From Marivita sp. (GTDB lineage: Bacteria > Pseudomonadota > Alphaproteobacteria > Rhodobacterales > Rhodobacteraceae): a DNA stretch of 64,000 nucleotides. The notes under the pieces were generated by a model. The model was not told the DNA's origin. It saw only the letters and a program-made list of their open reading frames with translations, and did no database searches. Below are positions 49,570-62,426 of the stretch, one piece after another (positions within the stretch are counted from its first letter, which is position 1; each line of letters opens with the position of its first letter). Location: contig NZ_JAIPUT010000006.1 of the NCBI RefSeq assembly GCF_020055635.1, positions 1 to 64,000 on the forward strand. Reading direction: 5' to 3'. The translations under genes and the position numbers were made by a program.

Positions 49570-50832
49570 TTACTGGAACACGGCGTCGGGATTGTCGAGG
49601 CTGTCGGAGCCTTCGATCTCGATCCCGCCAAGATCCAGCGCGGCAACGACGCGCTCGATCGACCGGGTCTGATCGATCAGCCCGTCGACACCGCCCATGA
49701 TCAGCGCCTCGCCACCTTCGTTGCCACGGGCCAGCATTTCGTCATAGGCAAAGCCCGCTTCGGCCGCGGTCTTGATCTGGCCGAGGGCTTGCACGGCATT
49801 GTTCAGCTTTGCGCGCATTTCCTGGTCGAGATCGGGGTTTTCGGCGGCCACCAGATCGGACAGGGACGGTCCGCTGACGGTCTCTCCATCAATGCGCACG
49901 TATCGGCCCAGGTAGACGTTCTGAATGCCGACACCGTTGTAGAAGTGATCGTTATGGGTGTTGTCGGCAAAGCAGGAATGCTCTTCCTCGGGGTCGTTGA
50001 GCATCAGGCCCAGCCGCATCCGCTCGCCTGCGGTCTCGCCATAGGACAGGCTGCCCATGCCGGTCAGGATCGCCGACAACCCGGCCTGTTCGTCCTGCAT
50101 CAGGTGGTCGCGCGCGTCGCCGCCCTCGGCCCATTGGCCGGTGATCCATTCGAGATCCGACACCAGCAGATCGGTCGCAGCAGACAGGTAATCGGCCCTG
50201 CGGTCGCAATTGCCATGGGTGCAGTCCTCACCTTGCGCATAGTCGGTCCATGGCCGGTTGCCCGCGCCATCGCCATGACCGTTCAGGTCCTGCCCCCAGA
50301 GCAGGAATTCGATCGCGTGATAGCCCGTGGCGACGTTCGCTTCGATTCCGTCCGCCTCGTGCAGTTTGCCCTCCAGCAGCTCCGGTGTGATCTCGCTGGC
50401 GTCGATCTCCTCGCCCGAGAGGGTGAAGTTCGGGTTGGCGATGACATTGAGCGCGGCCAGCTGGTTGGCATCGGTCGGGCCACCATAGGCACCGTCGACA
50501 TAGTCGATCAGGCCCTCGTCCAGCGGCCAGGCGTTCACCTTGCCTTCCCAGTCGTCGACGATGGGGTTGCCGAAGCGGAAGACCTCGGTCTGCTGGTACG
50601 GCACGCGCGCCTCCAGCCAGGCTTCGCGGGCGGCGGCCATGGTTCCCGCAGAGGGGGATTCGATCAGGGCGTTCACCGCGTCTTGCAGCCCGCGCGCGGA
50701 TTCCAGGCTGTCGCCATAGTTTGCTTCCGCGATGTCGGCATAGGTGTCAAGCACCTCTGCTGCGGTTTGGGCCTGTGCAGTGCTCGCCAATGCAATCCCT
50801 ATGGCGGTTGTGGTCAATATGGTGCGAAGCAT
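49570..50832 (-). CDS. Imelysin family iron-regulated periplasmic protein
   Basis: A 420-residue exported protein (signal ending STAQA|Q) of the imelysin / insulin-cleaving membrane protease family M75, similar to IrpA and IcmP. The GxHxxE motif is intact: Gly170-Tyr-His172-Ala-Ile-Glu175. These proteins are iron-regulated and are thought to bind iron in the periplasm or at the outer membrane. It is the first gene of the four-gene cluster. A TGA-N9-TCA Iron-Rhodo-box-type site lies about 173 bases upstream. Confidence 0.92.
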   Translation of the reverse strand: MLRTILTTTAIGIALASTAQAQTAAEVLDTYADIAEANYGDSLESARGLQDAVNALIESPSAGTMAAAREAWLEARVPYQQTEVFRFGNPIVDDWEGKVNAWPLDEGLIDYVDGAYGGPTDANQLAALNVIANPNFTLSGEEIDASEITPELLEGKLHEADGIEANVATGYHAIEFLLWGQDLNGHGDGAGNRPWTDYAQGEDCTHGNCDRRADYLSAATDLLVSDLEWITGQWAEGGDARDHLMQDEQAGLSAILTGMGSLSYGETAGERMRLGLMLNDPEEEHSCFADNTHNDHFYNGVGIQNVYLGRYVRIDGETVSGPSLSDLVAAENPDLDQEMRAKLNNAVQALGQIKTAAEAGFAYDEMLARGNEGGEALIMGGVDGLIDQTRSIERVVAALDLGGIEIEGSDSLDNPDAVFQ

Positions 50833-52150: not shown

Positions 52151-52882
52151 CTATAGGGTCGCGAAGATGCTGCCCCAGCCCGTCACACGCGCGGGATCAA
52201 GTCCGACCAGGCGCAGGGTTTGGGCAGCGGTGATGGACACGGAATCGATGACCGGAATGCCAAGTTCCGCCTCCAGCGCCGGAGCAATGGGCGCGCCGCG
52301 GAAATTCGTGCACAGCACGGCGATCGCCTCTGGCTTGGCCCGGGCAACGTCACGCACCATGTCCGCGATCACATCGGGGCTGTATTCGGCAAAGCTGAAA
52401 TTCCCGCGATCCTCGAGCCGTCTGTCGGCCACGACATCAATGCCCCGCGCGGCGTAATTCGCGATGATGCGATCCTGGATTTCGCTCAGGTAAGGCGTGA
52501 CCAAGCCAAGCTTTCCGATGCCCGCGCGCTGGTAGTGATCTTCATAGGCAAGCACCGTCGATGTGGCCTGGCAACCCGTCGTCTGTTCAATCCGGTCACA
52601 AAGGTCACGGTCATTGTCCAACCCAAGCCAGGACGCGGAGGTGCCGTTCCAGGCAATACATCCCAGTTGTGCTTCCGACAGGCGCTCTGCGGCTTCGAGG
52701 ATGGGCGCAAGGGTGAATTGCGATTGGGAGGTCTGGCTCATCGAGATCTCGACCACGCGAAAGCGCCCGAAATGCACGCTTGCGGCCCCTCCCAGCGTTG
52801 CGAACATCGCGGAGGTATAGGGCTCCAGGACCGTGTTCGAGGACGGGGTCAGCATGCCGACACGTTGCACTGTTCCGCTCAT
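52151..52882 (-). CDS. Arylmalonate decarboxylase / maleate isomerase-like protein
   Basis: A 243-residue protein of the Asp/Glu racemase superfamily. The N-terminus RVGMLTPSSNTVLEPYT matches the maleate isomerase / AMDase branch. The first catalytic position is Gly80 in NGTSAS, where maleate isomerases have Cys in a CTS motif. The second cysteine is Cys191 in VLCTNFRGAP. Gly at site one with Cys at site two is the arrangement of arylmalonate decarboxylase, whose Gly-Thr-Ser forms the carboxylate pocket. It is divergent from a TRAP transporter. The true substrate is unknown. Confidence 0.85.
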   Translation of the reverse strand: MSGTVQRVGMLTPSSNTVLEPYTSAMFATLGGAASVHFGRFRVVEISMSQTSQSQFTLAPILEAAERLSEAQLGCIAWNGTSASWLGLDNDRDLCDRIEQTTGCQATSTVLAYEDHYQRAGIGKLGLVTPYLSEIQDRIIANYAARGIDVVADRRLEDRGNFSFAEYSPDVIADMVRDVARAKPEAIAVLCTNFRGAPIAPALEAELGIPVIDSVSITAAQTLRLVGLDPARVTGWGSIFATL

Positions 52883-53300
52883 GGTCTTTTTTCCTTGTTC
52901 TCGCACGCCTGTTGCGGGCTCGTGCCACTGAATCGGACAAACCCGGTGGCGCAACAAGGGGTGGATGTTGTCGGAGCGTATTCCAAGTGATCGTTTTCTC
53001 AGTGCGCCTGTTTATGAGGCGGCCCTGTGATGGCCAGATGAAAACTCAGGCGCCGGGTGCGCACCGATATGATGCGGAGTCGAGTGTGGCAACGGGCGTC
53101 AAACAGACGTGTTTTCTCCAGGTCCCTGTTTTCAATCATAAAAATTCATCTCTTTCATGAAATTCACTTTTCTTCTTGGCGATTCGGATAAAATTTATTT
53201 TCTTGACCTCAAGGGCAAACGTCATCCTGATCTATCACAGATCACCTGAAACCCGCACGCGGGTTTGATTTCATGGTCGTTTGCAAAAAGGATTTCCCTG
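52883..53300. promoter_or_regulatory. Divergent region between the AMDase-like gene and dctP
   Basis: A 418-base gap. The part near 53130-53215 is AT-rich and ends in TTGACC (53203-53208), a possible -35 for the TRAP operon. A 17-bp inverted repeat follows at 53228-53244. No gene or RNA is visible. Confidence 0.4.
53228..53244. promoter_or_regulatory. Candidate operator TGATCT-N5-AGATCA
   Basis: A perfect 6-bp inverted repeat with a 5-base spacer, about 57 bases before the dctP start and just after a TTGACC hexamer. Its place is right for a repressor site of the TRAP operon, perhaps of GntR type, but no regulator gene is nearby. Confidence 0.4.
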
Positions 53301-54329
53301 ATGAAGACACTGCTCTCCTCTCTCTCGATTATTGCCAGCCTTGCGACTTCTGTCGCTGCCCAGGACATGCGCATCCTGACCCAGAACCAGGAAGGCCGCG
53401 CACAGCACGCCCCCGAGATCGCCGGGATGGCCGCGTTGGGCGACACCGGTTTCACTGTTGCACGGAGCGAATTCCAGGCGGTCGGCATCGACCTTGCCGA
53501 TGGTCTGCGCCTGCTCAGCACCGGCGCGTTTGACATGGCGACGATCCAGGTCGGCAGCGTGGCAAAGGACGATCCTTTCCTCGAAGGCATCGACCTCATC
53601 GGCGTTTCGACCAACATGACCGACCTCAAGGCCGCCGTCGACGCATACCGCGACGTGTTCAATGCGCGTCTGGGCGAAAAATTCGGCGTGCAGGCGGCCG
53701 CGATCTGGCCGTTCGGGCCGCAGGTGTTCCTGTGCAATGCCGAGATCTCATCGCTTGCCGATCTGGACGGGTTGAAGGTGCGGTCTTTCACGGCATCCAT
53801 GTCGACGCTGCTGGAAAACCTTGGTGCCACGCCGGTGACGCTGTCTTTCCCCGAGGTCTACCCGGCCTTGCAACGTGGCGTGGCTTCTTGTGGAGTCACG
53901 TCGCCCACGTCGTCGAATACTGGCAAATGGCCAGAGGTGACGACGCATCTTTATCCGCTGTCCGTTTCCGGCTCGATCCAGTCCCACATGGTCAACCTTG
54001 AATGGCTGAATGGCCTTGGCGAGACAGAGCGCGCCGCGTTTGACACCGCGATGGCCGACATGGAAGCCGCAATGTGGGAGCTGGCGATCAACACCAACGG
54101 CACGGCACAGGCATGTTCGACCGCGGGCGATTGCCCCGAAGGCGGGCTTTATACCTCTTACGACATGGCGCTTGTACCTGTCTCGGATGAAGACAAGGCC
54201 AAGGTTGCCGAGATCTCGGTCTCTGCCGTGCTGCCGGAATGGGCGGCGAAATGCGAAGCCTCCTATCCCGGTTGCAAGGCGATCTGGAATGAAACAGTGG
54301 GCGCTGCACGTGGTCTGAGCCTTGAGTGA
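53301..54329 (+). CDS. dctP: TRAP transporter solute-binding protein
   Basis: A 342-residue periplasmic DctP-family receptor with a signal peptide (MKTLLSSLSIIASLATSVAA|Q). The carboxylate-binding arginine region is visible in LADLDGLKVRSFTASMSTLLENLGATPVTLSFPEVYPALQRGV. AAAAGGA lies eight bases before ATG 53301. Extra cysteines near the C-terminus (ACSTAGDCPEG, KCEASYPGCK) could form disulfides. Ligands of this family are organic acids; this one is not identified. It overlaps the small permease gene by eight bases. Confidence 0.92.
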   Translation: MKTLLSSLSIIASLATSVAAQDMRILTQNQEGRAQHAPEIAGMAALGDTGFTVARSEFQAVGIDLADGLRLLSTGAFDMATIQVGSVAKDDPFLEGIDLIGVSTNMTDLKAAVDAYRDVFNARLGEKFGVQAAAIWPFGPQVFLCNAEISSLADLDGLKVRSFTASMSTLLENLGATPVTLSFPEVYPALQRGVASCGVTSPTSSNTGKWPEVTTHLYPLSVSGSIQSHMVNLEWLNGLGETERAAFDTAMADMEAAMWELAINTNGTAQACSTAGDCPEGGLYTSYDMALVPVSDEDKAKVAEISVSAVLPEWAAKCEASYPGCKAIWNETVGAARGLSLE

Positions 54330-54933
54330 CCACACAGTCCGTCGGCCGCAGTTCCTGGTGCTGGCCGAAAAGATGGCGGTCCTTCTGGCGCTCTGCGCCG
54401 GAGGGGCTGTCGCCCTCTTGGCGGTGCTCATCTTCATCGACATCATCGGCCGCGATTTCCTCGGCGTATCGGTACAGGGCACCGATGAAATCGGCGGTTA
54501 TGTCCTGGCTTTTGTCGGATCGTTGGGCATGGCGTTGACGCTGCTGCGGCGCGGGCATCCCCGGATCGATCTTTTCTTTCGGTTCTTTCCAAGGCTGGCC
54601 GGTGATGTCCTGCATGTGCTTGCGCAGGTCACGATCGCGGGTTTGGCCGTCTTCATGACATGGCACGCCTGGTCCGAGTTGCAGACCACCCTGCGGTTCG
54701 GCGCAATCACCAACACGCCGCTGCAAACCCCGCTCTGGGTGCCGCAGGCAATCTGGGTTTTCGGTACCGCGTTCTTCGGCATCACGGCCTGTCTGACCTC
54801 GGCACATGCCCTCTACCTGTTGGCGCGCCACAGGCCATCGGTTGCGCGGGTCTACGGCCCCGTGACGGTCGAGGAAGAGGTCAACCAATATGTCGGGGCC
54901 GATACGCAAGAGGGTGACGATGCTCGGAATTGA
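54322..54933 (+). CDS. dctQ: TRAP transporter small permease (TTG start)
   Basis: A 203-residue DctQ-family membrane protein with four helices (about residues 13-35, 52-70, 88-110 and 132-155). RDFLGVSVQGTDEIGGYVLAFVGSLGMALTLLRRGHPRIDLFF is typical. The TTG start lies inside the end of dctP, and the 3' end overlaps dctM by 14 bases, so all three TRAP genes are translationally linked. Confidence 0.9.
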   Translation: MSDHTVRRPQFLVLAEKMAVLLALCAGGAVALLAVLIFIDIIGRDFLGVSVQGTDEIGGYVLAFVGSLGMALTLLRRGHPRIDLFFRFFPRLAGDVLHVLAQVTIAGLAVFMTWHAWSELQTTLRFGAITNTPLQTPLWVPQAIWVFGTAFFGITACLTSAHALYLLARHRPSVARVYGPVTVEEEVNQYVGADTQEGDDARN

Positions 54934-56200
54934 AGGAGCGGCCATCGGGTTTGGCCTTTTGCTGTTCTTGCTGTTCATCGGGTTGCATATCGCAACCGCG
55001 CTTTTCGTCGTCGCCCTGACCGGCGCTTACCTGTTTTTCGGGGACGCGATGATCCGGCCCTTCGGCACGATGATGTGGGGCACACTGAACAACTTCTTGC
55101 TGGTGGCGATCCCGCTGTTCGTGCTGATGGGCGAAATCCTCGTGCGCGGCGGGGTGACGGAACGCATGTACAGCGCGCTGGCCGACTGGACCCGCCCGCT
55201 GCCGGGTGGCCTGTTGCACACCAATATCGCCGCCTCGACCGTGTTCGCGTCGATCTCCGGGTCGTCCGTCGCCACCGCGGCCACCATCGGCACGGTCGCC
55301 TTTCCCACCTTCCGCCGACAGAATTATGCGGAAAGCTGGGTTGCGGGCAGCGTCGCTTCGGGGGCCACGCTGGGTATCCTGATCCCGCCGTCGATCAACC
55401 TGATCATCTACGGTGCAATCACCAACACCTCGATCGGGGCCCTGTTCACGGCAGGCATCCTGCCCGGCATCGTGCTGGCCTCCTCCTTCATGGGCATCAT
55501 CATCGTCGCCTGCCTGTGGAACCCGGATATCGCGGGACGGCCACAGGCCATGGCACCTTGGCCAGAGCGGCGGCAACGCCTTGTCGATCTGGTGCCTCCG
55601 GTGGTGATCTTCCTGCTGGTCATGGGTTCGATCTACCTTGGCTTTGCCACACCCACCGAAGCCGCGGGCGTCGGTGTCATCGCGGCGCTTGGTCTGACGG
55701 CGTTTTACCGCACGCTCAACTGGCCTATGCTGCGCGAGGCCTTCCTGTCTTGCGTCACGACAACCGGCATGACCCTGCTCATCCTGATCGCGGCGTTCTA
55801 TCTGAACTTCATTCTGGGGGTTCTGGGCGTTCCGGCACAGGTGTCGGCCTTTGTCTCCTCCTTTGACGTGCAACCGGTGGTGATGATCCTGTTGTTGGTC
55901 TGTCTCTACATGGTGCTGGGCTGCTTTCTCGACGCGCTTGCCATGATGATCGCCACGATCCCCATCGTCCTGCCGATCGTTCTGCTGATCGGCTATGACA
56001 GCGTGTGGTTCGGAATTTTCCTCGTGCTGATGTGCGAACTTGCGCTGATCACGCCGCCCGTCGGAATGAACCTTTATGTCACGCAAAGCGTGCGCGGGCG
56101 CGGCAATGTCGGGACCGTCATCAAGGGCGTCCTGCCCTTCATCCTGTGCATCCTGTTCGTCGTGGCCCTGATCGCAGTCTTTCCGGACGTCCTGTTTTGA
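54920..56200 (+). CDS. dctM: TRAP transporter large permease
   Basis: A 426-residue DctM-family protein with about 11-12 helices that carries the substrate using the Na+ gradient. Signature segments include VAIPLFVLMGEILVRGGVTERMY, AASTVFASISGSSVATAATIGTVAFPTF and GATLGILIPPSINLIIYG, plus VTTTGMTLLILIAAFYLNFIL. ATG 54920 has AGAGGG upstream. Its TGA overlaps the TTG start of the racemase-fold gene, making the latter part of the operon. Confidence 0.94.
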   Translation: MLGIEGAAIGFGLLLFLLFIGLHIATALFVVALTGAYLFFGDAMIRPFGTMMWGTLNNFLLVAIPLFVLMGEILVRGGVTERMYSALADWTRPLPGGLLHTNIAASTVFASISGSSVATAATIGTVAFPTFRRQNYAESWVAGSVASGATLGILIPPSINLIIYGAITNTSIGALFTAGILPGIVLASSFMGIIIVACLWNPDIAGRPQAMAPWPERRQRLVDLVPPVVIFLLVMGSIYLGFATPTEAAGVGVIAALGLTAFYRTLNWPMLREAFLSCVTTTGMTLLILIAAFYLNFILGVLGVPAQVSAFVSSFDVQPVVMILLLVCLYMVLGCFLDALAMMIATIPIVLPIVLLIGYDSVWFGIFLVLMCELALITPPVGMNLYVTQSVRGRGNVGTVIKGVLPFILCILFVVALIAVFPDVLF

Positions 56201-56955
56201 CCAAGCCTCGAACCCGCATCCTTGTGGTCAATCCGAACATTTCGGACGCGGTCACAACCGCGTTTGTCGGGGCCATGGCGGGGGACGCGCCGGATCGGGT
56301 CGAGCTGACCGGTGTGACCGGCACGTTCGGCGCACAGATCGTGTCGATCGAAGCCGAGAACGTGGTCGCGGCCTTTTCCGCGCTGGAACTGGCCGCCAGA
56401 CACGCGCAGGGATTTGACGGGATCATCCTCGCGATCTCGTTTGATTCCGGTCTGAAGGCGTTGCAGTCGGTCCTGCCCGTTCCCGTCATCGGGATCACCC
56501 AGGCCACCCTGCAAGCCGCGTCACGGGGCGGGCGGCGCGTGGGAGTCGTCTTCTTCGGCGAGGCCAGTCGCCAGCTTTACGAGGATCTGACCGCGGGTTA
56601 CGGGATCACCCCGGTCGGATATCGCGCCATCAATTTCACCTCTGTCGACGATTATCTGCGACCCGAGTCCAGGGATGAGGCCGTCGCCGAGGCGATTGCA
56701 TCGCTTCAGGCCGCAGGGGCCGAAGCGATCGCCATCTACGGCACCGCGGTTGCCGGCATCGCAGCGCGGCTGCAACCCCGTTCGGACCTGCCGCTCTTTG
56801 ATGGCCTTTGCGCGTTGGACTCCTGTGTGGCCCAGATCGAACAGGGGGCAGGAACCGGGAGCCTGCAAAGGCAACCCGTCGGCCCGTCACGGAACCTGTC
56901 GCGCGAATTGACCGACCTGATTGCCGGCACATACCTGCCGGGAAGGACCTGCTGA
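56197..56955 (+). CDS. Asp/Glu/hydantoin racemase-fold protein without catalytic cysteines (TTG start)
   Basis: A 252-residue protein of the hydantoin racemase branch (ILVVNPNISDAVTTAFVGAM at the start). In active racemases two cysteines sit in ACFDDPGL-like and GCAGM-like motifs. Here the first reads ILAISFDSGL (Ser81) and the second IAIYGTAVAG (Thr183). Both catalytic cysteines are therefore replaced, and racemisation by the known mechanism is unlikely. The TTG start overlaps the dctM stop (TTGA). It may be a binding protein, a lyase or a changed enzyme acting on the TRAP substrate. Confidence 0.87.
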   Translation: MTKPRTRILVVNPNISDAVTTAFVGAMAGDAPDRVELTGVTGTFGAQIVSIEAENVVAAFSALELAARHAQGFDGIILAISFDSGLKALQSVLPVPVIGITQATLQAASRGGRRVGVVFFGEASRQLYEDLTAGYGITPVGYRAINFTSVDDYLRPESRDEAVAEAIASLQAAGAEAIAIYGTAVAGIAARLQPRSDLPLFDGLCALDSCVAQIEQGAGTGSLQRQPVGPSRNLSRELTDLIAGTYLPGRTC

Positions 56956-56984: not shown

Positions 56985-58259
56985 TCAGACGATCCCGCCA
57001 CCGGCGCCTGTGACCTCTGGACGCTCTTGCGCAACCCGTTGCCGGTATCCGCTGGCCCGGAAGGTGGCGACCGGGTCGATCGCGGCCCCCTGGTCTGCGC
57101 GCGCCATGGCAAGAATCGGTTCGACATCGGTGCGGAACGCCGTCTTGAGCGTCGTCGTGGCCATCAGTGCGTCATTGGCGTCCTGGTAGCCTGCCAATGC
57201 CTGCCGATCCACCAGAAGCGCCTGCGCATAGGCACGCTGCACCTCCATGGCCGAGACCATCAGGCTTTCCATCGGATCGGTCACGTTATGGCTCTGGTCC
57301 AGCATGTGAGCCGGTCGGAAATCCGGATTGCCCTCGGCGATGGCCAGCTCGTTGAAGACGAGAAACAGGCGGTAGGGATCGATGCACCCGGTATCGAGGT
57401 CATCATCGCCATACTTGCTGTCGTTGAAATGAAAACCGCCCAGCTTGCCGGCCCGGATCAGGCGGGCGACGATCATCTCGATATTCACGTTCGGCGCGTG
57501 ATGCCCCAGGTCGACCAGGCAGAATGCCTTGGCTCCCAGATGCTGGGCTATCATCAGGTTGCTGCCCCAATCCTGAACGACCGTCGAATAGAACGCGGGC
57601 TCGAACATCTTGTGTTCGGTGAACAACCGCCAATCGTCGGGCAAACCGGCATAGACCTGCTCCATCGCGTCCAGGTAGCGGTCGAACTGCCGTGTCAGGT
57701 CGGTCTGGCCGGGAAAGTTCGATCCGTCCCCGACCCAGACGGTCAGCGCCTTCGACCCGATCGCCTGACCGATCTCGATACATTCGAGGTTATGGGCAAC
57801 CGCCTGCTGGCGCACCGCGGCGTCGGTATGGGACAACGATCCGAACTTGTAGCTGAGCTTTTGGTCGGGCTGATCCTGGAACGTGTTCGAATTCATCGCG
57901 TCAAAGCCAAGGCCGACCTCGCCTGCCTTGTCGCGCAGCGCTCGCGGGTCGGTCTTGTCCCACGGGATGTGCAGCGACACGTTCGGCGTGGCGGCGGTCA
58001 CCTGGTGGATGACGCCGCAATCCGACAGCTTGTCGAAGATGTCGCGGGGCTCGCCCTTGCCCGGGAACCTCGCAAAACGCGTGCCCCCCGTCCCGACACC
58101 CCAGGACGGAATGGCGACGCCATAGGCCGCAACCTTGCGCTTTATGTCGTCGATGGCGATGCCGCGCCGGTCAAGCTGGTCTCCCAGCGCCTCGTACTCC
58201 GAGGCCAGCGTTTTTCCCCGGCCTGCGTTTTCGGACGCGATCAGGTCCGTGTCGATCAT
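56985..58259 (-). CDS. rhaI: L-rhamnose isomerase, rhizobial type
   Basis: Converts L-rhamnose to L-rhamnulose in the cytoplasm. The 424-residue protein belongs to the rhizobial RhaI group of xylose-isomerase-fold enzymes. Metal- and substrate-binding segments are visible: LTVWVGDGSNFPGQ, LFTEHKMFEPAFYSTVVQDWGSN, LVDLGHHAPNVNIE and GGFHFNDSKYGDDDLDTG. ATG 58259 follows the rhaD stop by 32 bases; an in-frame ATG 15 bases upstream is less likely. It is the second gene of the rhaD-rhaI operon. Confidence 0.94.
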   Translation of the reverse strand: MIDTDLIASENAGRGKTLASEYEALGDQLDRRGIAIDDIKRKVAAYGVAIPSWGVGTGGTRFARFPGKGEPRDIFDKLSDCGVIHQVTAATPNVSLHIPWDKTDPRALRDKAGEVGLGFDAMNSNTFQDQPDQKLSYKFGSLSHTDAAVRQQAVAHNLECIEIGQAIGSKALTVWVGDGSNFPGQTDLTRQFDRYLDAMEQVYAGLPDDWRLFTEHKMFEPAFYSTVVQDWGSNLMIAQHLGAKAFCLVDLGHHAPNVNIEMIVARLIRAGKLGGFHFNDSKYGDDDLDTGCIDPYRLFLVFNELAIAEGNPDFRPAHMLDQSHNVTDPMESLMVSAMEVQRAYAQALLVDRQALAGYQDANDALMATTTLKTAFRTDVEPILAMARADQGAAIDPVATFRASGYRQRVAQERPEVTGAGGGIV

Positions 58260-58291
58260 GGTTCCTCCCTGCAAGCCCGTGGCCCGCCCTG

Positions 58292-60391
58292 TCAGCGTGT
58301 GAACGCATCCTTGTTTCCTGCATCCACGTTGATGATGTTGCCGGTGGATTTGGCGGATTTGTCCGATGCCAGGAAATACGCCGCCTCGGCGATGTCTTCG
58401 GGATAGACCGACCGCTTGAGCAGGGACCGCTCGCGATACATTTCTTCCAGCCCTTCCTTGTCAGTGCCGTAGGTCGCGGCGCGCTGGTCCAGCCATTCGC
58501 CCGACCAGATGCGCGACCCGCGCAGCACGGCGTCCGGATTGACCACGTTCACCCGGATGCCATGCGCCGCGCCCTCAAGGGCCAGACACCGCGCAAGGTG
58601 CAATTCGCTGGCCTTGGCGGTGCAATAGGCCGCCGCATTGGGCGACGCCGCAAGCGCGTTCTTCGAGCCGATGAAGACCACCGATCCACCGATGCCCTGC
58701 CGCTGCAACAGCCGGAAAGCCTCGCGAGAGGCCAGGAAATAGCCCGTGGACAGGATCGCCATGTTCCTGTTCCACATCTCGAGGGACGTCTGCTCGATCG
58801 GGGCCGATGACGCGATGCCGGCATTGGACACGAGAATGTCCAGACCGCCGAACTCGCGCGCGGCCTCGGAATAGGCCCGGATCACGGCGTCTTCATCGGT
58901 CACATCCATTGCGGTGGCGCGCACGACATCGCCGGAAAACCGCGCGGCCAGTTTCTTGCATGTCGCGTCTGCCGCAGCCGCGTCGATATCGGCCAGAACC
59001 ACGCAGGCACCCTCTTCGAGAAACCGTTCGGCTGTCGCCGCTCCGATGCCACCGGCGCCGCCCGTGACCACGGCAATGCGCCCTGCCAGCGATTTCGGTT
59101 TCGGCATGCGTTGCAGCTTGGCCTCTTCCAGAAGCCAGTATTCGATGTCGAACGCCTCCTGCTCGGGCAACCCCCGATAGGCGCTCACCGCATCGGCTCC
59201 GCGCATCACGTTGATGGCGTTGACGTAGAATTCCGCCGAAATGCGCGCCGTGGCCTTGTCCTTGGCAAAGGTGATCATCCCCACGCCGGGCACAAGGTAG
59301 ACGACCGCGTTCGGGTCGCGGATGGCCGGGCTGTCGGCGTGTTTGCAGCGGTCGTAATAGGCGGCGTATTCATCGCGGTACGCTTCGATACTTGCCCTCA
59401 GACCGTCAAGAAGAGCCTCCACATCCGGCTTGGCGGGATCGAAATTCACCACGAGCGGCCGGATCTTGGTGCGCAGGAAATGGTCGGGACAGGAGGTGCC
59501 CAGCGCGGCGAGCCGCTCCATGTCGCGGGCATTCACGAATTCCAGCACCTCGGGCGCGTCGGTGAAATGGCCGACCATGTGCTGCTTTCCGGCCACGAAG
59601 CCCCGGATCGCGGGCATCAGGCTTGATGCCACCTCGGCGCGGGCCGCCGGATCGAGGCTCTGGTGGATCGCCCCTCCAAACGCGGGTGTGTCGCCGGTCC
59701 TGTCCTCGAACCACGCCATCGCGCGATTGATGACGTCAAGGGTCAACGCGTAACAGTCCTCGGCATCGTCGGCCCAGGTGAACAGGCCGTGGCTTTCCAG
59801 AACCACCCCCTTAGCCGACGGATTGTCCTTGCAGAAGCGTTCCAGCCAGAGACCAAGCTCGTAGCCCGGCCGCTTCCACGGCAGCCAGCCGATCTCGTCA
59901 CCGAAAATCTCGTGGGTGAGCGCCTTTGACTCGGCCGACGCCGCGATGGCGATGATTGCGTCGGGATGCATGTGATCGACGTGTTTCTTCGGGACATAGG
60001 CGTGCAAGGGCGTGTCGATCGACGCCGCGCGCGGATTCAGATTGAAGGTGCAATGCGGCAGGTATCCGACCATTTCGTCTTCATGGTCCGGACCGCGATA
60101 GACATCCCTGAGCGCGCGCAGCTTGTCCATGTAGAGCGTCGCGAAACCGTCCATCCTGATCGACCCGACATCGCCCCCCGAGCCCTTCACCCAGAGAACC
60201 TCGACTGTCTCGCCGGTCAGGGGATCGGTCTCCATCACTTTGGCCGAGGTGTTGCCGCCGCCGTAATTGGTGATTCTCTTGTCAGAGCCGAGGAGATTGG
60301 AGCGATACAGCAGTTTTTCCGCTTCGCCCATCGTCGCGGCTTTGCCGTTATCCCAAAGATTTTCTAGGTGATTTTCGACACGCGTCAGCAT
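58292..60391 (-). CDS. rhaD: Bifunctional rhamnulose-1-phosphate aldolase / alcohol dehydrogenase
   Basis: Cleaves rhamnulose 1-phosphate to dihydroxyacetone phosphate and lactaldehyde and oxidises or reduces the aldehyde. The 699-residue fusion has an N-terminal class II aldolase domain (HVDHMHPDAIIAIAAS metal motif, residues about 135-150) and a C-terminal short-chain dehydrogenase (VVTGGAGGIGAATAERFLEEG; active-site YCTAK). This fusion is the family norm. GGGAGG precedes the ATG. It is transcribed away from the regulator across a long palindrome. Confidence 0.95.
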   Translation of the reverse strand: MLTRVENHLENLWDNGKAATMGEAEKLLYRSNLLGSDKRITNYGGGNTSAKVMETDPLTGETVEVLWVKGSGGDVGSIRMDGFATLYMDKLRALRDVYRGPDHEDEMVGYLPHCTFNLNPRAASIDTPLHAYVPKKHVDHMHPDAIIAIAASAESKALTHEIFGDEIGWLPWKRPGYELGLWLERFCKDNPSAKGVVLESHGLFTWADDAEDCYALTLDVINRAMAWFEDRTGDTPAFGGAIHQSLDPAARAEVASSLMPAIRGFVAGKQHMVGHFTDAPEVLEFVNARDMERLAALGTSCPDHFLRTKIRPLVVNFDPAKPDVEALLDGLRASIEAYRDEYAAYYDRCKHADSPAIRDPNAVVYLVPGVGMITFAKDKATARISAEFYVNAINVMRGADAVSAYRGLPEQEAFDIEYWLLEEAKLQRMPKPKSLAGRIAVVTGGAGGIGAATAERFLEEGACVVLADIDAAAADATCKKLAARFSGDVVRATAMDVTDEDAVIRAYSEAAREFGGLDILVSNAGIASSAPIEQTSLEMWNRNMAILSTGYFLASREAFRLLQRQGIGGSVVFIGSKNALAASPNAAAYCTAKASELHLARCLALEGAAHGIRVNVVNPDAVLRGSRIWSGEWLDQRAATYGTDKEGLEEMYRERSLLKRSVYPEDIAEAAYFLASDKSAKSTGNIINVDAGNKDAFTR

Positions 60392-60462
60392 TGTCGTCCT
60401 CCCGACAGCTTGGCCCGGTGGGGCATGATCTCAGCCGCCAAACTGTTCGGGGCGGCGGGGCT

Positions 60463-60535
60463 TGTCAATCAGTTTCGATCATAACCCGTCATGTTGCACC
60501 GCAGCATGACGGGTTATGACTTTTTTTGATTGACA
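60463..60535. promoter_or_regulatory. Two-part palindrome, probable operator of the rhamnose divergon
   Basis: An inner inverted repeat at 60479-60519 has 19-base arms with a single mismatch (60494/60504) around a 3-base centre; the outer 15 bases of the arms are perfect (TCATAACCCGTCATG). Nine-base outer arms TGTCAATCA (60463-60471) and TGATTGACA (60527-60535) share exactly the same centre, at 60499. Each outer arm contains an outward-facing TTGACA hexamer, a possible -35 for the rhaD or regulator promoter. It lies between the rhaD start and the DeoR-type regulator. Confidence 0.8.
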
Positions 60536-60577
60536 GGCTGCGAGATTAATTCATCCTCGGCCATCAAGGAGGACGGC

Positions 60578-61372
60578 ATGCACGAGTCGGAGCGCCACAG
60601 GGTCATTCTATCGGCGGTTCAAGAGCGCCCGGTTGCGACCGTGACCGAACTGGTCGCGCTGACCGGGGCGTCCGAAGCGACGATCCGGCGCGATATCGCC
60701 ACGCTGCATGTCCAGAACCGTTTGCGCCGGGTCCGTGGCGGGGCCGAGGCGCTTGCCCCACCGCCGCTGCCCGGTCTGGCCGGTCGGCCGTTTTCGGTCA
60801 ACGAAGCGATCAACATAGAGCAGAAGCAGGCCATCGCGCGCGAAGCCGCTGCATTGTGCAAGAGCGGCGAGCCGATCATCATCAACGGCGGGACCACGAC
60901 CTTCCAGATGGTGCATCCGCTGGTCAGCCAGCAGCTGACGATCATGACCAACAGCTTTCCCATCGCCGAACATCTGCTCAAGCACAGCAAGAACACCGTT
61001 CTGCTGCCGGGGGGCGCGCTTTACCGCGAGCAGAACATCATCCTGAGTCCGTTCGACAATGACATGACCCGGCATTTCTATGCCAAACGCATGTTCATGG
61101 GGGCGCATGGCATCGGGTCGGTGGGCCTGATGGAATCCGACCCGCTTCTGATCCAGGCCGAGGAAAAACTCATCGGGCGCGCGGACGAACTTGTCGTACT
61201 GGTCGACAGCTCGAAATTCGCCAATCGCTCCAGCCTCGTCCTGTGTGCGCTTGACCGCATCCACACTCTGATCACGGATGACGGCATCGACGACAAGACG
61301 GCCAGGATGCTCGAGACCGCGGACATCACTCTCATCGTCGCGCAGACCAGCGCGGCAAAACGAACCGGTTAG
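60578..61372 (+). CDS. rhaR: DeoR family transcriptional regulator of rhamnose genes
   Basis: A 264-residue regulator with an N-terminal DeoR helix-turn-helix (HRVILSAVQERPVATVTELVALTGASEATIRRDIATLHVQNRLRRVRGGAEAL) and a sugar-phosphate-sensing DeoRC domain (IINGGTTTFQMVHPL...). The frame is open from 60530, but AAGGAGGA lies directly before ATG 60578. Its place between rhaDI and rhaST matches RhaR of rhizobial rhamnose loci. It probably represses both directions through the palindrome at 60.5 kb. Confidence 0.92.
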   Translation: MHESERHRVILSAVQERPVATVTELVALTGASEATIRRDIATLHVQNRLRRVRGGAEALAPPPLPGLAGRPFSVNEAINIEQKQAIAREAAALCKSGEPIIINGGTTTFQMVHPLVSQQLTIMTNSFPIAEHLLKHSKNTVLLPGGALYREQNIILSPFDNDMTRHFYAKRMFMGAHGIGSVGLMESDPLLIQAEEKLIGRADELVVLVDSSKFANRSSLVLCALDRIHTLITDDGIDDKTARMLETADITLIVAQTSAAKRTG

Positions 61373-61424
61373 CGCCACAGCACTGACCGCACGGCAACCA
61401 TCGCTCATTCAGGGAGGAACAACC

Positions 61425-62426
61425 ATGAGCTTGACAAGAAGACTGTTCGGAGGAACCGCACTGGCCGCGCTTGCACTCAGCGGCAGCATGGCAGCAGCGC
61501 AGGACGATCCGGTGCGCATCGCGCTCGTGGTCAAAGCGCTTGGCATCGGCTTTTTCGAAGCGGCGGCAGAAGGCGCCGAGCAAGCGGCGGAAGACCTGGG
61601 AAATGTCGAGATCATCTATACCGGGCCGACCGACACGACAGCTGAAGGCCAGATCGAGGTGATCAATTCGCTGATCGCCCAGCAGGTCGACGCCATCGCC
61701 GTTTCGGCCAACGACACCGATGCCCTCGTTCCGACACTCAAGCGCGCGATGGACCGCGGGATCACCGTCATCAGCTGGGATTCCGGCGTCGCTGCCGAAG
61801 GCCGCGAACTGCACCTGAACCCGTCCTCCAATTCGCTGATCGGCAACATGATCATCAAGCTGGCAGCCGACGAACTGCCCGATGGCGGACAGGTCGCGCT
61901 GCTGTCGGCAACCACCACGTCGACGAACCAGAACACCTGGATCGACGAGATGAACAAGGTGATGGGCAACTATCCCGGTATCGAGGTGGTGGCGACGGTC
62001 TATGGCGACGACCTTGCCGACAAGTCCTACCGCGAGGCACAGGGCCTGATGCAATCCTATCCGGATCTCGACGCGATCATCGCGCCCACGTCCGTGGGCA
62101 TCGTCGCGGCGGCGCGGGCGGTCGAGGATGCGGGCAAGATCGGTGAGGTCAACGTGACCGGGCTTGGTCTGCCGTCCGAGATGGCAGGCGCCATCGAATC
62201 CGGTGCCTCCAAGTCCTTCGCGATCTGGAATCCGATCGACCTTGGCTATTCGGCAGCATATCTCGCGCATCAGCTGGCGACCGACCAGGCCGAGGCCGGT
62301 CCGGGCGCAACCATCCCGATGGGCCGCATGGGATCGCTGACGCTGGACGAAAACAGCGAAGGCGCGATGGCGGACCCCTTTGTCTATGACGCGTCCAACA
62401 TCGACGACTTCAAGGACATCTTCTGA
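61425..62426 (+). CDS. rhaS: Rhamnose ABC transporter substrate-binding protein
   Basis: A 333-residue periplasmic sugar-binding protein (peripla_BP_4 type) with a signal peptide (MSLTRRLFGGTALAALALSGSMAAA|Q). Conserved regions are VRIALVVKALGIGFFEAAAEGAEQAAEDLG, AIAVSANDTDALVPTLKRAMDRGITVISWDSGV and AIIAPTSVGIVAAARAVEDAG. GGGAGG precedes the ATG. The sugar is inferred as rhamnose from the gene order rhaR-rhaS-rhaT next to rhaD-rhaI. Confidence 0.92.
   Translation: MSLTRRLFGGTALAALALSGSMAAAQDDPVRIALVVKALGIGFFEAAAEGAEQAAEDLGNVEIIYTGPTDTTAEGQIEVINSLIAQQVDAIAVSANDTDALVPTLKRAMDRGITVISWDSGVAAEGRELHLNPSSNSLIGNMIIKLAADELPDGGQVALLSATTTSTNQNTWIDEMNKVMGNYPGIEVVATVYGDDLADKSYREAQGLMQSYPDLDAIIAPTSVGIVAAARAVEDAGKIGEVNVTGLGLPSEMAGAIESGASKSFAIWNPIDLGYSAAYLAHQLATDQAEAGPGATIPMGRMGSLTLDENSEGAMADPFVYDASNIDDFKDIF

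Follow-up and report, generated by a model that had tools for sequence, protein, structure and literature searches.

The window analyzed here is a stretch of 64,000 nucleotides, taken as a whole, and at 56197..56955 on its forward strand it carries a gene for a racemase-fold protein that directly follows the genes of a TRAP transporter and lacks the catalytic cysteines of its superfamily. The locus raises the question of what such a protein is, whether its loss of cysteines is shared, and what it may do next to an importer.

The protein and its missing cysteines

The open reading frame encodes 252 amino acids from a TTG start codon, which sits inside the dctM stop codon to make a start/stop overlap, TTGA, at 56197..56200 (+). 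Because the 6 orthologues that adjoin dctM also overlap with it, as TGATG or TAATG, the overlap is a kept feature of the locus. PF01177 matches residues 8-204 at 94.5 bits, above its cut-off of 31, which places the protein in the superfamily by sequence; none of the NCBIfam models matched at E = 0.001, and the nearest PDB sequences in a sequence search are allantoin racemases. The AF2 model, built from 17 sequences, has a mean pLDDT of 92.6. Foldseek ranks the Pseudomonas and Klebsiella allantoin racemases at the top, and VIA-align superimposes 235 residues on 3qvk with Z = 30.4 and an rmsd of 2.1, giving the two-domain racemase fold. A preliminary description had called this a well-formed protein of racemase fold, and so it appears from the intact reading frame, the confident model, and the residues that are invariant among its orthologues. 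The product is a cysteine-free variant of the Asp/Glu/hydantoin racemase superfamily, real and conserved.

The catalytic cysteines of the allantoin racemase KpAllR are given as Cys79 and Cys184 in PMC12661438. An HMMER alignment to KpAllR (3qvj, in which the chain count is the enzyme numbering minus two at both cysteine sites) places them opposite Ile80 (56434..56436, +) and Gly182 (56740..56742, +) of the window protein. The register is the same, and gapless at both sites, when a profile of 12 clade and sister sequences is aligned to a profile of 34 Cys/Cys sequences, and Asp83 lines up with the Asp that is conserved in the C-F-x-D motif. Where a two-cysteine racemase has a Cys at both pseudo-symmetric sites, the window protein thus has Ile80 and Gly182. 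Since both alignments put those two residues in the cysteine columns, Ser81 and Thr183, which the preliminary description took for the changed cysteines, are the residues right after the columns; the absence of both cysteines stands, and their assignment moves one residue upstream at each site. None of the alignments we made restores a cysteine by a shift in register. With no thiol at either column in the alignments, and with the loss common to the clade, two-base racemisation by cysteines is impossible, as had been proposed.

The residues that follow the cysteines have a function of their own in OpaE, where, as in KpAllR, they supply the backbone nitrogens of the oxyanion hole (PMC12661438, section 6). 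By register, Ser81, which begins the stretch Ser81-Phe82-Asp83 (56437..56445, +), and Thr183 (56743..56745, +) are at these backbone positions. KpAllR, or HpxA (3qvj, 3qvk), resembles the window protein in fold (Z = 30.0-30.4), at about 25% identity, and shares the NPN motif, Asp83 and, by register, the oxyanion-hole backbone positions. It differs in that its Cys79 and Cys184 are replaced by Ile80 and Gly182 and that the window protein belongs to a TRAP operon. Thr118 and Thr119 of KpAllR hold the ureido tail of allantoin, again according to section 6 of PMC12661438. In the HMMER register these are Phe119 and Phe120, so the Thr-Thr pocket is missing and allantoin would be an unlikely substrate. 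In the 20-row lineage described below, residue 119 varies and residue 120 is Phe in 14 of the 20. Hydantoin racemases of the HyuE type have both Cys and lie beside a D-hydantoinase; the window protein has neither Cys, and a hydantoinase profile finds no match in the window.

The Pseudomonas AllR (5lfd, 5lg5) is the best single-sequence PDB match, with fold Z = 29.7-30.0, and by the alignments it also has no Cys at the first column, but it keeps the second one, in the motif GCGGM. Two sequences like Pseudomonas AllR have Tyr and Ile where the window protein has Ser81 and Tyr128. As an observation in its own right, the alignments put a Gly in the first Cys column of the Pseudomonas-type allantoin racemases L170, L171 and PDB 5lfd. 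This contrasts with the description in PMC12661438 of both cysteines as conserved throughout the superfamily.

The lineage and its residues

Among 394 genomes of the bacterial family, four besides the window's own have close relatives; the scores are 189-229 bits, the next among the matches listed scoring 91. A genome scan yielded 12 loci, eight of them with proteins 47-55% identical to the window protein. The clade (support 98*, or 99* with more rows) has 9 distinct members found, the window protein included, and its hosts include Roseivivax lentus, Mesobacterium pallidum, Mangrovicoccus algicola and a Rhodobacteraceae metagenome-assembled genome. All 9 are Ile/Gly, with a cysteine at these columns in none, and the single decayed case that the preliminary description allowed for is not what is seen. 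Ile80, Ser81, Phe82, Asp83 and Gly182 do not vary, either between the window protein and four orthologues of 45-52% identity or across all 9 clade members. A search of plasmid sequences returned 68 records, all below 60% identity, with no clade member seen among them.

The two columns were surveyed in 83 distinct domains, mostly from the window's bacterial family and picked by similarity to the window protein, not at random; only domains whose envelope exceeded 150 residues were kept, here and in the larger tree. The column pairs are Cys/Cys in 34, Ala/Gly in 14, Ser/Gly in 13, Ile/Gly in 9, Cys/Gly in 5, Val/Ala in 3, Ala/Ala and Val/Gly in 2 each, and Gly/Gly in 1. Thus 44 of the 83, in several residue classes, are without either cysteine, a share biased towards the window protein's kind because the sample was drawn by similarity to it. 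The 34 Cys/Cys rows make up one side of a tree branch with weak support (21). The larger tree has 33 further domains from the class and the phylum, 116 in all, and with the motif columns left out it puts the window protein in a clade of 20 rows (SH-aLRT 94).

This lineage is marked by two residues, Ser81 and Tyr128 (56578..56580, +). The groups that we labeled S81-lineage and AG-Y are defined by the residue itself, and the counts of Ser81 and Tyr128 given here are taken from a tree inferred without those columns. Both residues are present in all 20 rows of the lineage, while residue 81 in the other 96 is Phe, Tyr or, once, Ala; Asp83 is likewise kept across the whole lineage sampled. Tyr128 is a candidate new functional residue by the residue counts and the tree. 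In the 116-domain set none of the 50 rows with the first cysteine has it, against 43 of the 66 without that cysteine, and every one of the 23 rows of an Ala/Gly clade (98*) has it as well. Only two changes of state at Tyr128 are found on the tree, so its link to the loss of the first cysteine can be explained by descent alone. Thr183 is variable, with Ala in 7 of the 9 clade members and Thr in 5 of the 20 lineage rows. The preliminary description asked whether TRAP-coupled homologues share the Ser/Thr pair. They have Ser81 in common, and likewise the loss of both cysteines, but not Thr183, which as a minority state led us to reject the pair as a mark of the family. Cys210 was considered as a replacement thiol, being invariant in the first five sequences, and was rejected, as it is Ala in one of the 9 clade members; groups outside the clade have no equivalent of it.

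The window's genome has two further members of the family, a Cys/Cys one (C44) and a Ser/Gly one (C58). The latter, at L037 9449-11424, is a cysteine-free paralogue with Ser then Gly at the columns, and it lies right after a different dctM. At L042 / L044, from Mesobacterium and Tropicimonas, three different cysteine-free racemase-fold genes (Ile/Gly, Ala/Ala and Ala/Gly) and two dctM share one locus.

Transporter and hydrolase genes nearby

Six profiles, one for each type of neighbor found at clade loci, were run on the neighborhoods of 60 of the 83 domains with a cut-off of 200 bits, or 150 bits for the AMDase-like type. The 60 rows come from 56 stretches, with three rows in L044 and two each in L035 and L115, and the stretches L039, L102, L115 and L139 are short. 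The counts that follow favor the window's clade because the profiles were seeded from its loci, and the Fisher tests made on them ignore descent.

A dctM lies immediately upstream of 20 of the 38 genes without either Cys and of 0 of the 21 Cys/Cys genes, and within 8 kb the figures are 30/38 and 1/21, a contrast unchanged at all cut-offs from 50 to 200 bits. When the window's clade is taken out, dctM is still within 8 kb of 22/29 genes versus 1/21 and immediately upstream of 13/29. Genes of the Ser/Gly class come directly after dctM in 9 of the 9 neighborhoods read. Few independent origins underlie the contrast in upstream dctM: the tree holds just 1-3 independent pairs (1-2 for the TRAP link), and hence neither the TRAP link nor Tyr128 is significant by descent.

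The hydrolases give a more mixed picture. At 200 bits an amidohydrolase is near 18/38 genes without either Cys versus 0/21 Cys/Cys genes, and at 100 bits the counts are 19/38 versus 5/21 (p 0.059), or 11/29 versus 5/21 without the window's clade. Five Cys/Cys neighborhoods have amidohydrolase matches of 125-164 bits, below the cut-off, and since the outcome shifts between 200 and 100 bits this contrast is not robust. An AMDase-like gene is found near 14/38 versus 0/21. At 200 bits the differences for a hydantoinase within 8 kb (15/38 versus 4/21) and for a PuuE-like gene (11/38 versus 2/21) do not reach significance. In the window's clade, dctM is adjacent in 7/9, and an amidohydrolase is present for 8/9 and a PuuE-like gene for 7/9, with a hydantoinase within 8 kb of only 2/9. 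L143, a gene of the same lineage in another family of the class, is again adjoined by both an amidohydrolase and a PuuE-like gene. The clade members L045 and L046 are not directly behind dctM and have ABC-transporter genes nearby, with the amidohydrolase kept. The gammaproteobacterial sisters L047-L049 lack the clade gene context, and those neighbors of L049 that were checked are unrelated.

The clade neighbor of about 503 amino acids is an amidohydrolase (PF01979) of ATZ/TRZ type, with N-ethylammeline and atrazine chlorohydrolases and 8-oxoguanine deaminase among its relatives and scores below all NCBIfam cut-offs shown. The neighbor of about 288 amino acids has no Pfam match and one NCBIfam match, to PuuE allantoinase at 75.6 bits versus a cut-off of 424.6, and in the PDB the polysaccharide-deacetylase family protein 3s6o outscores the PuuE entry 3cl6. 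With the first below its cut-offs and the second weak and ambiguous, the neighbor names do not fix substrates. The D-hydantoinase of the L046 locus scores above its own cut-offs.

The window's own locus has the order of a DctP-type TRAP transporter, with the solute-binding protein DctP (53265..54329, +, PF03480), the small permease DctQ (54322..54933, +, PF04290) and the large permease DctM (54890..56200, +, PF06808), all above cut-off. The DctP frame is given from its first start codon at 53265, and the Met at 53301 is the likelier start. The gene order is a divergent AMDase-like gene, dctPQM, the racemase-fold gene, and then an L-rhamnose isomerase gene on the other strand. The divergent gene (52151..52957, −) encodes an AMDase/maleate-isomerase/EutA-like protein (PF17645) whose sequence includes an NGTS stretch and, at VLCTNF, a Cys. 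It falls far below the NCBIfam cut-offs, with 62.1 of 318 bits for EutA and 45.3 of 225 for AMDase. Of the 8 other clade loci, 7 have a homolog of it within the stretch read, and the homologs at five clade loci are 64-69% identical to it. The amidohydrolase, PuuE and hydantoinase profiles match nothing in the 64-kb window, and a complete ring-opening pathway within it was rejected on that count. The closest matches that the genome has to the amidohydrolase (32% identity) and the PuuE-like protein (42%) are on another contig, separated by about 0.6 kb.

Identity to the clade homologs is 83-88% for DctM, 74-80% for DctP, 65-71% for DctQ and 46-52% for the racemase-fold gene, which is thereby the least conserved of its operon; GntR regulators at other loci show a similar degree of divergence. 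The best PDB match of DctP is a weak one to 2pfy, which we take to be one of the Bordetella DctPs that bind pyroglutamate. Pyroglutamate-binding DctPs of Bordetella are described in passages of PMC5812351 that do not name the entry 2pfy. The DctPs of five clade loci, at the 74-80% identity just given, keep with the window's own the Arg of a KVRS motif (6/6). An Arg in TRAP binding proteins limits the substrates to carboxylates (as summarized in PMC4646407), and the motif suggests that the KVRS Arg is this selecting residue.

What the protein may do

Because the close relatives share the loss of cysteines and for the most part adjoin transporter and hydrolase genes, the protein probably has a job other than racemisation. 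The reading that we put first, though tentatively and as something short of an even call, is that of a conserved cysteine-free enzyme of the superfamily, fed by the TRAP importer and acting in the breakdown of N-heterocycle carboxylates. The protein would be made together with an importer of a solute that probably bears a carboxylate. It would most likely act on an intermediate formed as a carboxylated N-heterocycle (hydantoin-, imide- or ureide-like) is broken down, since the loci of close relatives mostly have an amidohydrolase and a PuuE-like gene, and several have an AMDase-like gene or a D-hydantoinase. The backbone oxyanion hole after both sites may still hold an enolate- or carboxylate-like group, with non-thiol groups, Ser81 and perhaps Tyr128, standing in for the two-thiol relay. 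An oxyanion hole without that relay would imply a reaction other than classical racemisation, such as a one-base isomerisation or tautomerisation, or a ring-opening or lyase step. The preliminary description had offered a new activity or a binding role; the fixed, lineage-specific residue set and the gene neighborhood favor a putative enzyme. Against an enzyme speak the weaker conservation of the gene (46-52%, versus 64-88% for dctPQM and the AMDase-like gene) and the three gammaproteobacterial sisters without the context. The window's own lack of hydrolase genes also counts against the reading put first. In a bolder version, which we consider rather unlikely though worth stating, the superfamily would have a large branch, coupled to TRAP importers and free of thiols, where the first Cys was lost as a fixed Tyr128 was gained. 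That Tyr, with a Ser at the oxyanion hole in the lineage, would make a new active site for an undescribed step in the catabolism of N-heterocycle carboxylates.

The lower conservation also bears on a second explanation, in which the fold is a non-catalytic binding protein that holds the imported solute or an intermediate, as a carrier, a sensor or an enzyme partner. We regard this as unlikely, if the most serious of the competitors. The acid/base thiols are gone, the gene diverges faster than dctPQM, and the Ile/Gly, Ala/Gly and Ser/Gly classes all include genes right after dctM, the last in all 9 genes read; but neither Ser81 nor Tyr128 varies within the lineage as sampled, and L045 and L046, away from dctM and near ABC-transporter genes, keep the amidohydrolase.

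Two further alternatives each seem to us improbable. In the first, the protein would still be a racemase or epimerase, with Ser81, Tyr128 or a bound water as base in place of a thiol; its substrate would carry an acidic C-H, as a 5-substituted hydantoin does. Partial precedents come from 5lfd, named as an allantoin racemase, and the two similar survey sequences with Gly at the first column, and from the Asp/Glu racemase EcL-DER (5elm), which functions with a Thr for one catalytic Cys (PMC8142540). EcL-DER has only one of its two cysteines replaced and is more distant in fold (Z = 14.5), and neither it nor AMDase, the other partly thiol-free precedent, is without both. D-hydantoinase genes are within 8 kb of 15/38 genes without either Cys, but of just 2/9 in the clade, and Cys-to-Ser changes in OpaE leave 4.8% of activity (C90S) or at most 0.3% (C199S and the double mutant), as reported in PMC12661438.

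The second, which strikes us as just as doubtful, takes AMDase as its model: the protein would be a decarboxylase or lyase that has an oxyanion hole but does without a thiol relay. AMDase (3dg9, 3ixl) and maleate isomerase (2xed) share the superfamily fold (Z = 17-19, with 17.4 for 3dg9), and AMDase-like genes are near 14/38 genes without either Cys. AMDase also lacks the first Cys, with Gly74 there to judge from the name of a Gly74Cys mutant, this being presumably the first-Cys column. Against this model, AMDase protonates through C188 (PMC12576825), where the window protein has Gly182, and PF17645 does not match the window protein at E = 0.001; maleate isomerase also uses a Cys, the mutant named in 2xed being C194S. 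Last, a decaying racemase pseudogene, for which the window copy's lack of the genes that follow in most relatives could be cited, is practically refuted by the intact reading frame, the kept overlap, the confident fold and the same residues in 9/9 clade members at about 50% identity.

Public records often name members of the family "aspartate/glutamate racemase family protein" (many rows, their cysteines unchecked). That label implies two-thiol racemisation, and in our sample, drawn by similarity, 44/83 lack both cysteines. A search of titles and abstract openings, mostly outside subscription journals, found no paper on cysteine-free or TRAP-coupled racemases. As the cysteine-free genes are linked to TRAP importers, knowing what one DctP binds and what one of these proteins catalyzes would set many annotations right and test whether the racemase fold can work without thiols.

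Elsewhere in the window, the region next door at 56985-62426 has rhamnose catabolism genes, with the L-rhamnose isomerase above cut-off for TIGR02629 and, by reading alone, a 699-aa aldolase/dehydrogenase-like frame, a DeoR-like regulator and a sugar-binding-like protein. On the other side, at 49570-50832 (−), a 420-aa frame has, also by reading alone, the likeness of an imelysin-type periplasmic protein.
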